IMG/VR virus record: IMGVR_UViG_3300032242_002535
Coordinates: 1 to 30,241 of that record
Source of the DNA: a virus
Direction: 5' to 3' (one strand)
DNA: 30,241 nucleotides
Below the pieces are notes generated by a model. It did no database searches, was not told the origin of the DNA, and saw only the letters and a list, made by a program, of their open reading frames with translations. Of this stretch, positions 1,677 to 6,043 are shown one piece after another. Position numbers and translations under genes: made by a program. The first letter of the stretch is position 1; every line of letters begins with the position of its first letter.

Positions 1677-3233
1677 ATGTCTAACTGTATTATAATCACC
1701 GGCGGAACTTGGAATAAAGATGACTGGAGTAAACTACAACGTAATGTTGGGTCTTACCGAATTGCATCTGCATTACAGGATTCCGGTTATTCAACTTTTG
1801 TTTTTGACTACATCATAAATTTTTCCTATGATGAAATTATTGAAGTTTTAGATAAACATTTAGGTGATGATACGATATGGGTTGGTTTCTCGTCAACCTT
1901 TTTCTGGTTTCCAGAACACGGAGCAACATCAGGAAATGGCGATATCTTAAAATTAAAAGAGATGTGGTGGACATATGATGATGATGCCAAAAAAATCATA
2001 AACTACATTAAAAGTAAATCCAAAGCCAAAATTCTATATGGCGGAACAAAATCTGAATTTTTTGTTGGTAAAGATCCGGACATTGATTACTATGTATTGG
2101 GATTAGCTGATACCGCAGTTATAAATTTAACAAAACACATTGAAACTAATGATATAACATATCTTGATCCTCATCATGAAATATTAAATTATGACGATGG
2201 TAGAAAAGGTTATTTCATAGACGCTATGAAATATCCTCAAGCAGAAATGGATAACATTAGAACGCATTGGTGGAAAAAAGAATTTAATATTTTACCAAAA
2301 GAAGCTCTATCATTAGAGTTCGCTCGTGGTTGTATATTTAAATGTAAATTCTGCACTTACCCACTCTTAGGTAAAGCAAAAGGTTCTTATCTAAGACAAG
2401 CAAAAGAAATTCGTGATGATATGATATTAAATTATGAAGCATACGGCACAACGGATTACTTTATTACAGATGATACAGTCAATGATGATAATGACAAACT
2501 AGAAGAATTACATAAACAATTTCAAACACTACCATTCAAACCAAAAATAACTGGATTTTTTAGACTGGATTTAATAAATAAACACCGACATCAAGCTGAG
2601 TTGTTAGTTGAAATGGGTTTAGTTGGTGTTTTCTTTGGTATAGAAACATTACATCCAAAAAGTGCTATTTCTATAGGTAAAGGATTACATCCTAATAAAG
2701 TTAAAGATTGCTTGAATTGGTTACATGATGGTCCATGGAAGAGAAAAGTTAACATTGGTGGTGGTATAATACTTGGTTTACCACACGACACCTTTGAATA
2801 TTTTGATGAGATAAATGAATGGGCAGCGGATAAATATTGTCCTATGGATCATGTGCAATTTTATCCTTTACATTTAAATGATATGAGTAAAAAGGATAAA
2901 CCTGGTCTCTATGTTTCAGAATTTAACTTGCATCCAGAAATATATGGCTATAAATTTCCAGGTGAAGATAATTATATGCGTTGGGAATTGCCAGAACAAG
3001 GTTTAAGTTATACATTATGTAATGAAATTTCAAAAGAGTTTAACAAAAATAGAGCTTTATATAATAAAGTCTCTGGTTTTGAGATACCAAAATGGCTAAA
3101 TTTAGGTATACCAATGGATGATTTATATGATTTGCCTGCATGGAAACTTATAGAAAAATATAATGTAAGTGATTTAAATAAAAAACGATTAAACGAGTAT
3201 AAGAAAATGCTCGGTGTATCAAATATAAAATAA
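1677..3233 (+). CDS. Radical SAM enzyme with N-terminal B12-binding-like domain
   Basis: A 518-residue protein. Residues 1-155 look like a Rossmann domain of the B12-binding type (N-terminal CIIITGGTW strand, VGFSSTFFW, KILYGGTKS, DYYVLGLAD), but I do not see the DxHxxG signature that supplies the cobalt ligand. The radical SAM core follows, with CxxxCxxC at C219, C223 and C226 (RGCIFKCKFC) for the [4Fe-4S] cluster, later strands FITDDT and VFFGIET, and a C-terminal part resembling B12-type radical SAM proteins. Such enzymes perform methylations or other radical chemistry on peptides and metabolites; the reaction here is unknown. No clear Shine-Dalgarno; the gene starts 5 bases after the oxygenase, so coupled translation is likely. 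Confidence 0.88.
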   Translation: MSNCIIITGGTWNKDDWSKLQRNVGSYRIASALQDSGYSTFVFDYIINFSYDEIIEVLDKHLGDDTIWVGFSSTFFWFPEHGATSGNGDILKLKEMWWTYDDDAKKIINYIKSKSKAKILYGGTKSEFFVGKDPDIDYYVLGLADTAVINLTKHIETNDITYLDPHHEILNYDDGRKGYFIDAMKYPQAEMDNIRTHWWKKEFNILPKEALSLEFARGCIFKCKFCTYPLLGKAKGSYLRQAKEIRDDMILNYEAYGTTDYFITDDTVNDDNDKLEELHKQFQTLPFKPKITGFFRLDLINKHRHQAELLVEMGLVGVFFGIETLHPKSAISIGKGLHPNKVKDCLNWLHDGPWKRKVNIGGGIILGLPHDTFEYFDEINEWAADKYCPMDHVQFYPLHLNDMSKKDKPGLYVSEFNLHPEIYGYKFPGEDNYMRWELPEQGLSYTLCNEISKEFNKNRALYNKVSGFEIPKWLNLGIPMDDLYDLPAWKLIEKYNVSDLNKKRLNEYKKMLGVSNIK

Positions 3234-3243
3234 GGAAAGAAAA

Positions 3244-3915
3244 ATGACTTTACCTTCCAGTGGTATAATAGGATTTTCTGATATAGAAAATGAAGTTGGT
3301 ATAGCCGTAGGCACAGCTTTAGATATGTCTTGGGTCAGAAGCAATTCAAAAGGAAACATTACTAATATGGATTCTTTACATGGTCTTGCTTGGTATCAAA
3401 GAAATGTAGACGGAAACTGCGATAATGGAAATTGTCCAAATAACTGTAACTGTGGTAATGTAAATTGTGGTAATTGTATCATTACAGGCGGAGTAAATTG
3501 CGCAAATTGTGATGGCCAAGCTTACTTGCAAGGAAATTGTAACTGTGCTTGTGCATATAATTGCACAACAGCAGAAACCTCCTATAATTGTAATTGTGCT
3601 TGTTCTTGGATTTGCGCTTGTGCCTGTTCAGATAAGAGTTTAAAAGAAGATGTCACAAATATTACAGGTGCATTAGAATCGGTCAGACAATTACAAGGCG
3701 TTTATTATAAATGGAACAATTCCGCAGGAAGTTACGGTAAAGTTCCAGGTAAAGAAACGATGGGTGTTATAGCAAACGATACACAAAAAATTGTTCCTCA
3801 GGTTGTAGGAAATTATAAAGATGTATTAACCGTGGATTATGAATCTATGAATGCATTATTGTTAGAAGCGATTAAAGAATTAGATTTTAAAATTGAAAGT
3901 TTAAGAAAGGTTTAA
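3244..3915 (+). CDS. Cys-rich virion-type protein with S74 chaperone domain; putative substrate of radical SAM enzymes
   Basis: A 223-residue protein in three parts. Residues 1-55 (MTLPSSGIIGFSDIENEVG) match the start of many T4-like phage fibre and structural proteins. Residues 59-128 hold 18 cysteines, largely as NC, CNC and CAC units separated by Asn, Gly and Ala. Residues 129-223 (SDKSLKEDVTNI, ALESVRQLQGVYYKW, MGVIANDT, VDYESMNALLLEAIKEL) form a Peptidase_S74 intramolecular-chaperone domain like those ending phage tail spikes. In that family autocleavage occurs before a Ser at the domain start; Ser129 is the candidate, which would leave the Cys-rich block as the mature C-terminus. It has a good AAGGAAAG ribosome site and is flanked on both sides by radical SAM genes. 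A modified adhesin tip is the favoured inference; a metal-binding domain is the alternative. Confidence 0.85.
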   Translation: MTLPSSGIIGFSDIENEVGIAVGTALDMSWVRSNSKGNITNMDSLHGLAWYQRNVDGNCDNGNCPNNCNCGNVNCGNCIITGGVNCANCDGQAYLQGNCNCACAYNCTTAETSYNCNCACSWICACACSDKSLKEDVTNITGALESVRQLQGVYYKWNNSAGSYGKVPGKETMGVIANDTQKIVPQVVGNYKDVLTVDYESMNALLLEAIKELDFKIESLRKV

Positions 3916-3916
3916 T

Positions 3917-5359
3917 ATGAATTTTTATGTTGCAGCTGCCAAATCTGGCGACCCGAGTGATATACAATATTTTTCTTATGACAATGAAAAAAATATTTTG
4001 TCTAGAAAAGATGGTTTTGTTTTTGAATATTCCGAAATCAGTAAAAATGAAATAGAACCAGCAAAAATATTTGATAAAAACAATCCATTAAAAAAATCAA
4101 AATTAGTAACATTTTTAAAGATTCAGTTAGGTTTATCATGTAACTATTCCTGTGACTATTGTTCACAAAAATTTGTTGAACGTGCAGAAGAAACGACATC
4201 AAAAGATATTGATAATTTTCTAAAAATGTTAGATAGTTTGGAATTTGATGAAGAATCTGGATTAAAAATAGAATTTTGGGGCGGTGAGCCTCTAGTTTAT
4301 TGGAAAACATTACGTCCATTAGCAGAGGCGATAAAAGAAAAATTCTACAATTGGAGTAAACCACCACTTTTCTCAATGATAACCAATGGTTCTATCTTAA
4401 CAAAAGAAATGTGTGCATGGTTATACTATATGGGATTTAGTGTCTCTATAAGTCATGATGGACCAGGACAATCCGTTCGTGGTCCTGATCCATTTGATGA
4501 CCCAAAACAAAAGAAAATCATATTAGACTTTTATAAAACTATGAGTAAAAATTATCGTTTTAGTTTTAATGCTATGTTAAACAATAAAAATAAAAGTAGA
4601 AAAAAAATATATGAATGGTTTGTTGATTTAACCGGAGACCCCGGTGTTGCCTTGGGAGAAGGCGGTATTGTTGATGCATATGATGAAGATGGTTTAGGAA
4701 ATTCATTAAGCACAAAGCAGGATCATTTTGATTATCGTAGGCAAAATTTTAATGATATTTTTGAAACTCAAGGTCAAATAGGATTTAGACAACAATTAGG
4801 AAAAATTGACGGGTTTACTCAGTCTATATTGACACACTCACATTCCGATACTCTAGGACAAAAATGTGGTATGGATGATGAACATACCGTAGCAATTGAT
4901 TTGCGAGGAAATGTCATAACTTGTCAGAATGTTAGTTCCGTTGAAATTGGTATGAATGGTGAGAACCATTTAAGTGGCCATGTGACTGATATGGATAATG
5001 TTTCAATTAAAACAGCAACGCATTGGAAAAATAGAAAAGAGTGTTCTTCTTGTCCGGTAGTGCATCTGTGTAAAGGCTCTTGTATGTTCTTGGAAGGAAA
5101 ATATTGGGAAGCTTCTTGCGATAATGCCTATTCGGATAATATAGTTATGTTTGCACTTTCATTTGAAAAGATTACAGGTTATATACCTTTTTTAATAAAA
5201 TCCGAAAATTTACCACTAGAAAGACAAGATATTTGGGGTAATGTTTTCAAACATGAAGAAAAGAAAAAACAAAAGATTATACCAATTAAAGTTGTAACAG
5301 AAAAGAAATTAAAAATTGATGATGTTGAAGTTTATGCAAAAAGTGTTATAATGGAATAA
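3917..5359 (+). CDS. SPASM-type radical SAM peptide-maturase-like enzyme
   Basis: A 480-residue protein. The radical SAM CxxxCxxC motif is at C75, C79 and C82 (LSCNYSCDYCSQ), followed by the WGGEP SAM-binding motif at 121-125 and the ITNGS strand. A C-terminal SPASM domain supplies cysteines for auxiliary clusters: C317, C336, the spaced set C376, C379, C385, C389 (C-x2-C-x5-C-x3-C), and C401. Known SPASM proteins (AlbA, anSME, PqqE, ranthipeptide maturases) modify peptides or proteins through thioether bonds, C-C bonds or Ser/Cys oxidation. The gene begins one base after the Cys-rich S74 gene, with AAAGG upstream, so production of enzyme and putative substrate is tightly linked. The chemistry is not predictable from sequence alone. 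Confidence 0.92.
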   Translation: MNFYVAAAKSGDPSDIQYFSYDNEKNILSRKDGFVFEYSEISKNEIEPAKIFDKNNPLKKSKLVTFLKIQLGLSCNYSCDYCSQKFVERAEETTSKDIDNFLKMLDSLEFDEESGLKIEFWGGEPLVYWKTLRPLAEAIKEKFYNWSKPPLFSMITNGSILTKEMCAWLYYMGFSVSISHDGPGQSVRGPDPFDDPKQKKIILDFYKTMSKNYRFSFNAMLNNKNKSRKKIYEWFVDLTGDPGVALGEGGIVDAYDEDGLGNSLSTKQDHFDYRRQNFNDIFETQGQIGFRQQLGKIDGFTQSILTHSHSDTLGQKCGMDDEHTVAIDLRGNVITCQNVSSVEIGMNGENHLSGHVTDMDNVSIKTATHWKNRKECSSCPVVHLCKGSCMFLEGKYWEASCDNAYSDNIVMFALSFEKITGYIPFLIKSENLPLERQDIWGNVFKHEEKKKQKIIPIKVVTEKKLKIDDVEVYAKSVIME

Positions 5360-5362
5360 AAA

Positions 5363-6043
5363 ATGAATACACAACAAATTTTAGAATTGATTAAATCGCA
5401 CCCAGCTTGTGTTTCTGTTGAAACGTATAACGTTCCTAATTTTTTACAAAACCAAATTACAGATAATGATATAATTTTATTTGATATTATTTTTCAAAAA
5501 AATGAAATAAAAAGAAAAATTATAATTTTATTAAATTTAGATTACATAAAAAATATAGATTTAAATATATCTAATGTTGACCATTTAGTTGATGATTTAA
5601 CTTTTTGTGATAAAGGATCATCATGTTTTGATGATGGTTGTGATATTTGTATTGATGGTGGGCCAGGGTCATACGGCAATATATCTCAAAATATGGGAGA
5701 ACCACCCACCTACTACATAGAACCTACTCAATCGCTAGCTATTAGGTTAAAATCTTTTGAAGTTCCTGAGGTTGAGATAACGGAAGAATTGCAAGAGTTA
5801 ATAAACCGCATACTACAAGTTCAATATATTACTGGCGTATCAATAGAAAATGTTCGCCATACACGAATAACTGAGAAACTTAACCGTGACGATGGAGTAG
5901 TTCTAATATTAGATAGACCGGACCACCACACAAAAATTAATATTTTTTACCCATTAAGTGTTCTACAAAATGTAGATAATCATAACTCAATTATTGAAAA
6001 TATAATTTTTGTAGTAGACACACATAAAAATATAGTGTTTTAA
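5363..6043 (+). CDS. Unknown protein with a four-Cys cluster, last gene of the radical SAM operon
   Basis: A 226-residue protein that I cannot assign. It starts three bases after the SPASM enzyme. The N-terminal ~75 residues alternate hydrophobic strands and charged turns. A motif at residues 82-105 contains C82, C88, C93 and C96 followed by a Gly-rich GGPGSYGN stretch. The C-terminal half is Glu/Ile-rich and ends in beta-strand-like segments (GVVLILD, NIIFVVD, KNIVF). There is no signal peptide. In this context it could be a peptide-recognition or scaffold partner, a second modification target through the Cys/Gly segment, or a zinc-binding protein. None of these can be preferred from sequence. 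Confidence 0.75.
   Translation: MNTQQILELIKSHPACVSVETYNVPNFLQNQITDNDIILFDIIFQKNEIKRKIIILLNLDYIKNIDLNISNVDHLVDDLTFCDKGSSCFDDGCDICIDGGPGSYGNISQNMGEPPTYYIEPTQSLAIRLKSFEVPEVEITEELQELINRILQVQYITGVSIENVRHTRITEKLNRDDGVVLILDRPDHHTKINIFYPLSVLQNVDNHNSIIENIIFVVDTHKNIVF

Follow-up and report, generated by a model that had tools for sequence, protein, structure and literature searches.

The gene at positions 3244–3915 of a viral contig probably encodes a tail adhesin of a T4-like phage, which would carry a Cys/Asn tip modified by radical-SAM chemistry, and an S74 domain acting as a removable C-terminal folding domain. The contig, a stretch of 30,241 bases which we analysed as a whole and call the window, contains T4-like baseplate genes (gp53, gp6 and a baseplate wedge subunit).

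The gene is part of a tight run on the + strand (1075–1671, 1677–3233, 3244–3915, 3917–5359 and 5363–6043). It starts with ATG, codes for 223 amino acids, and is preceded by a Shine-Dalgarno-like sequence, AAGGAAAG, at 3232–3239. It sits between the gene of a B12-type radical-SAM enzyme and that of a radical-SAM/SPASM maturase. The product of the first gene of the run (1075–1671) is DUF6445/phrog_1644-like and is 32% identical to one protein of locus L055. The last gene of the run (5363–6043, + strand), directly behind that of the SPASM enzyme, codes for a 226-aa protein of unassigned function which includes a Cys/Gly/Asp stretch, CDKGSSCFDDGCDICIDGGPGSYG; it has no match in Pfam or NCBIfam, matches only phrog_28319 in PHROGs (E 0.065), and has no relatives in the loci searched.

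The protein encoded by 3244–3915 consists of three parts, all on the + strand. The N-terminal domain (residues 1–56, 3244–3411), with the sequence pattern MTLPSSG.I..SDI..E, is modelled by AlphaFold with a pLDDT of about 90 for residues 1–50; it is homologous in relatives in which a stop codon follows the Cys/Asn block (referred to as bare), in those that continue with S74 and in those with a KIIC domain, and it is probably the part that attaches the protein to the virion. Then comes the Cys/Asn block (residues 57–128, 3412–3627): of its 72 residues, 18 are Cys, 16 are Asn and 8 are Gly, and Lys, Arg and His are absent. NC dipeptides number 13 in the block, versus 4.0 in shuffles of the same residues, none of which reaches 13 in 20,000 trials. 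An earlier note on this DNA had described a Cys/Asn/Gly segment of about 70 residues with NC repeats, ending at C128 and followed by an S74 domain from Ser129, and both the composition and the boundary are borne out. The block is not a product of chance, since dozens of homologous proteins have it; we find it conserved in about 98 distinct relatives. AlphaFold models it with low confidence (pLDDT mostly 38–56) and gives no fold; the needle of stacked turns suggested in the earlier note finds no support in this model. We propose that the block is both the substrate of the radical-SAM enzymes and the mature C-terminus of the protein. The third part, residues 129–223 (3628–3912), is the S74 intramolecular chaperone, or self-cleaving domain.

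We infer that the protein has a role in the virion because S74 is a fibre domain, because the block ends fibre-like proteins, and because five bare genes trail fibre genes that end in S74. The fibre-like proteins that end in the block are found in the Achromobacter phages JWF and 2-1 and in prophages; that of JWF is encoded inside a run of tail genes, and one of these proteins has collagen repeats. In distant prophage lineages, the same pairing of enzyme and block is observed, the block being carried by quite different tail-fibre proteins. As for the five bare genes (in phages L044, L051, L053, L068 and L086), each lies directly behind a separate fibre gene whose product ends in S74. These observations speak against another explanation, which we consider rather unlikely, in which the product is a phage-encoded RiPP-like peptide (a bacteriocin or an exclusion factor, for instance) that is set free through processing by S74, Hint or other means and has no part in the virion. 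The small size of the protein in many phages (about 125–140 aa), the RiPP-like gene order, and the long C-terminal helix of the KIIC forms, which is hydrophobic by sequence, would all suit such a peptide, whereas the fibre domain, the C-terminal position of the block on fibre-like proteins (within a tail gene run in the case of JWF) and the five bare genes point to the virion.

The identity of the S74 domain is clear. The Pfam family Peptidase_S74 (PF13884) matches residues 129–188 with an E-value of 1.7e-12 and 47.9 bits, above the cut-off of 22, and the match starts exactly at S129. The cut is expected, from the sequence, between positions 3627 and 3628 (C128|S129), which would give fragments of 13.4 kDa (residues 1–128) and 10.6 kDa (residues 129–223); the latter is close to the C-terminal fragment of about 11 kDa anticipated in the earlier note. 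That note also gave the catalytic set as Ser/His/Glu, which is wrong: the published set is a Ser-Lys dyad, S911/K916 in endoNF and S587/K592 in MyRF (PMC8326128, PMC3742443), written SDxxxK for Bdellovibrio fibres (PMC10769870). The residues expected for cleavage are present in the protein studied here, as SDKSLK (S129, D130 and K134; 3628–3645, + strand). The S, D and K of the motif are invariant across 16 S74 domains from these phages (alignment A6), and the other two fusions of S74 to a Cys block keep it as SDDTLK (L035) and SDDRLK (L074).

Structure prediction gives the same picture. In the AlphaFold monomer model, residues 130–221 have a pLDDT of 94–97, and the modelled segment 122–223 matches the ICA domain of MyRF (7dc3) with a Foldseek E-value of 1.7e-5 and a VIA Z-score of 9.3; further matches are S74 domains of endoNF (3gw6, Z 7.8), of the GA-1 neck appendage (3gud, Z 6.9) and of the T5 fibre (4uw8, Z 6.6). 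The S74 domain is thus predicted to adopt the ICA fold. A profile built from the 16 S74 sequences matches PDB entries 6f45, 7dc3 and 3gud, and phmmer, run with the S74 domain alone against the PDB, returns no sequence match. A point against cleavage is that nothing in the protein corresponds to the oxyanion Arg located upstream in endoNF, since the block is devoid of Lys, Arg and His; MyRF, though, cleaves without this Arg (PMC8326128). The residues that precede S129 are Cys-Ala-Cys, and those that precede most of the other S74 domains considered here are an aromatic pair (for example YYS, FWS or LFS).

What follows the block in other phages is informative. Among the 98 distinct relatives, the block is followed by a stop codon in 39, by a helical domain starting with SKIIC in 51, by S74 in three (including the window) and by Hint in five (L001, L002, L192, L195 and L208; the N-terminal part differs in L001 and L002). 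Additional Hint cases occur in the prophage lineages L143, L148, L149, L151 and L156. Hint domains are self-cleaving, as is S74, and here they start at their own first Cys (CDC|CFPAD or NCS|CFPAGT). The block of the window ends in WICACAC before S129, and those of bare relatives end in FVCACACW, WICACACW or LVCACACW, followed by the stop. The tree of the radical-SAM enzyme implies three separate gains of S74 and at least four of Hint; grouping the three S74 cases in a single clade is rejected (AU p 3.8e-8). One of them, L074, is by its sequence a natural swap of the C-terminal domain at the junction. Before the junction, where the block ends, it is 75–78% identical to nine close KIIC relatives and 71.5% identical to a tenth (L190), but beyond it the identity to all of them is 11–15%; its flanking DNA is 82–87% identical to that of both L067 and L186, a resemblance that ends no more than about 60 bases from the junction.

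That two unrelated self-cleaving domains were recruited repeatedly, at the very site where relatives have their stop codon, would be hard to explain unless the block has to end as a free C-terminus. That the block is the mature C-terminus is therefore the best reading, given a genuine S74 domain with its SDxxxK motif, which begins where 39 of the 98 relatives stop and where five others have Hint. This was the central proposal of the earlier note, and it is favoured by the junction comparison and by the domain being a genuine S74, even if the catalytic residues named there have to be replaced. We think it improbable that S74 trimerises the protein and then remains joined to it in the virion, which would make the Cys block internal rather than terminal. 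It is true that SDxxxK is necessary while cleavage depends on context, and that the CAC on the P1 side is unusual and lacks a basic residue. However, relatives end or carry Hint at this junction, and none of the three independent fusions has lost its catalytic residues. The S74 domain is not essential to the block, since bare relatives do without it.

The commonest ending, the helical domain of about 170 aa that starts with SKI[IV]C (KIIC), is seen in L005 (7857–8375) and 50 other distinct proteins. It has a hydrophobic C-terminal helix and can be replaced by S74, as in L074. It has no match in Pfam or PHROGs, and no convincing fold match of its model was obtained in the PDB (best E 0.99).

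Directly downstream of the Cys gene, the ORF at 3917–5359 (+ strand) codes for a 480-aa protein of the family phrog_1802. It has the CX3CX2C motif at residues 75–82 (C75/C79/C82) and seven SPASM cysteines (C317, C336, C376, C379, C385, C389 and C401), which are invariant in alignment A1. It scores 32.7 bits against TIGR04085 (cut-off 27), and its nearest curated relatives are maturases of Cys-rich peptides, PapB among them. We call it PapB-like and not a PapB, because its score against the PapB equivalog NF047865 (84.8 bits) is far below the cut-off of 340. Judging from its cluster motifs and from the adjoining gene of a Cys-rich putative substrate, it is a putative radical-SAM/SPASM RiPP maturase.

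Used as a single-sequence query of viral contigs, the radical-SAM protein finds nothing; a three-row profile of the SPASM enzyme detects relatives both in viral contigs (524) and in bacterial genome contigs (83). A gene with the Cys/Asn block is near the enzyme in most of the SPASM loci that we read; such a gene is absent from five of the 80 viral loci retained, all five being cut off beside the enzyme. Conversely, a search with the Cys-S74 protein as the only query gives 76 loci, 74 of which are new; the SPASM enzyme is within about 5 kb in 73 of these 74, and the exception ends at a contig edge. Altogether, 97 of the 98 distinct viral relatives of the Cys protein have a SPASM maturase nearby. 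The comparison with RiPPs made in the earlier note, which did not cite the flanking radical-SAM genes, is strengthened by them. In isolated phages, the full Cys-S74 protein is not found (223 records match partly, none covering 80% of the query), nor is the B12-type enzyme. Bacterial contigs of Limnohabitans, Comamonadaceae and Rhodobacter type (L088–L136) encode longer fibre-like proteins that end in NCNCNC stretches, near enzymes of the same family as the SPASM enzyme; that of L122 has collagen repeats. It is doubtful that the cysteines simply bind metal or form disulfides while the radical-SAM/SPASM enzyme acts elsewhere: CxC motifs are common metal ligands, and the missing fold of the block in the model counts neither for nor against this idea, but the enzyme accompanies the Cys gene in nearly all relatives, the pairing recurs with different tail-fibre proteins in distant prophage lineages, and the nearest curated relatives of the enzyme modify Cys-rich peptides.

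The ORF at 1677–3233 (+ strand), upstream of the Cys gene, codes for the 518-aa B12-type enzyme (Radical_SAM in Pfam, E 1.6e-12), which we propose is a second tailoring enzyme. Its best matches in NCBIfam are B12-binding radical-SAM families, all below their cut-offs; the best is TIGR04072, with 70.3 bits (cut-off 360) over residues 26–372. Relatives that are 46–52% identical lie beside other Cys genes. Of the 18 distinct loci whose block has [FWL][VI]CxC as its ending, 12, including the window, carry such an enzyme at more than 40% identity, compared with none of the 79 others. In the window this terminal motif is WICACAC (residues 122–128, 3607–3627, + strand), common to the bare relatives that end in [FWL][VI]CxC..W-stop. 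The association has a P of 2.6e-11 in Fisher's test and is not significant in a tree-aware test, since there are only two or three independent lineage pairs. We take it as a lead that the B12-type enzyme may modify the terminal WICACAC-type motif.

The mechanism that we propose is as follows. The N-terminal domain would attach the protein to the virion, and the Cys/Asn block would be the working tip, modified by the neighbouring radical-SAM/SPASM enzyme. The most likely modification would be thioether or similar crosslinks from Cys to a backbone or Asn/Asp carbon. A second enzyme, that of the B12 type, would probably act on the terminal WICACAC motif. The S74 domain would trimerise the chains, help folding, and then cut itself off between C128 and S129, so that the modified block would become the free mature C-terminus, at the outer end of the tail adhesin, as in the bare relatives. 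The finished virus probably carries the modified tip, considering that a dedicated radical-SAM enzyme adjoins the gene and that self-cutting domains were repeatedly attached at the end of the tip.

We are evenly divided about a broader hypothesis, according to which this is a widespread phage system of radical-SAM-crosslinked Cys/Asn adhesin tips, with interchangeable, self-removing follower domains (S74, Hint and perhaps KIIC) that help the tip to fold or shield it before setting it free; such a receptor-binding tip, RiPP-like and crosslinked by enzymes, would be the first on a virus. Our searches of open-access papers on radical-SAM and phage tail proteins, on NCNCNC and on Hint domains of tails returned no description of the system. 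The removal of an S74 chaperone and maturation by a SPASM enzyme are both known processes; the combination of the two on a phage tail protein is undescribed in the open-access papers searched. If our reading is correct, it links RiPP chemistry with phage host recognition, two fields that have not yet met, and it gives a purpose to the phage radical-SAM family phrog_1802, so far annotated by domain only. It would also mean that phages alter their receptor-binding tips by chemistry as well as by sequence, and the protein described here would be a substrate that can be tested directly and that brings its own release domain.

Several known systems share features with this one. The S74 (ICA) domains of endosialidases, MyRF and the Bdellovibrio MAT have the same fold and SDxxxK dyad, but what lies upstream of S74 here is a Cys/Asn block with no basic residue, not a triple beta-helix. 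In the long tail fibre of phage S16 (gp37 and gp38), whose PDB entry 6f45 is matched by our profile, an S74-type chaperone is removed from the C-terminus, as we propose here, which exposes a functional end: the last 113 residues of gp37 autocleave, exposing the surface on which the adhesin docks (PMC7917993). The S16-type adhesin gp38 has a polyglycine domain, equally odd in composition (PMC6851490), and the gene order in the five phages with a bare gene behind a fibre gene resembles gp37-gp38. No match to gp38 was found in Pfam, PHROGs or fold searches, the latter being weakened by the block having been modelled without a fold. Contrary to S16, what would be exposed here is the Cys/Asn block, which is part of a small protein and is accompanied by dedicated radical-SAM enzymes. 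In ranthipeptides (freyrasin/PapB, SCIFFs, NxxcA), as here, a SPASM-type radical-SAM enzyme adjoins a Cys-rich substrate, and NxxcA links Cys to Asn (PMC8326336); the substrate here differs in being a phage tail-type protein with a folded N-terminal domain and CxC/NC spacing. Last, in the Achromobacter phages JWF and 2-1, a Cys/Asn stretch also precedes a self-cleaving domain (NCNCDCNCNCS|CFPAGT in JWF gp28), and the SPASM enzyme, encoded two genes downstream of the fibre gene, is 43–44% identical to that of the window; in these phages, however, Hint takes the place of S74, the Cys stretch is short and borne by a 480-aa fibre protein, and the B12-type enzyme was not found.
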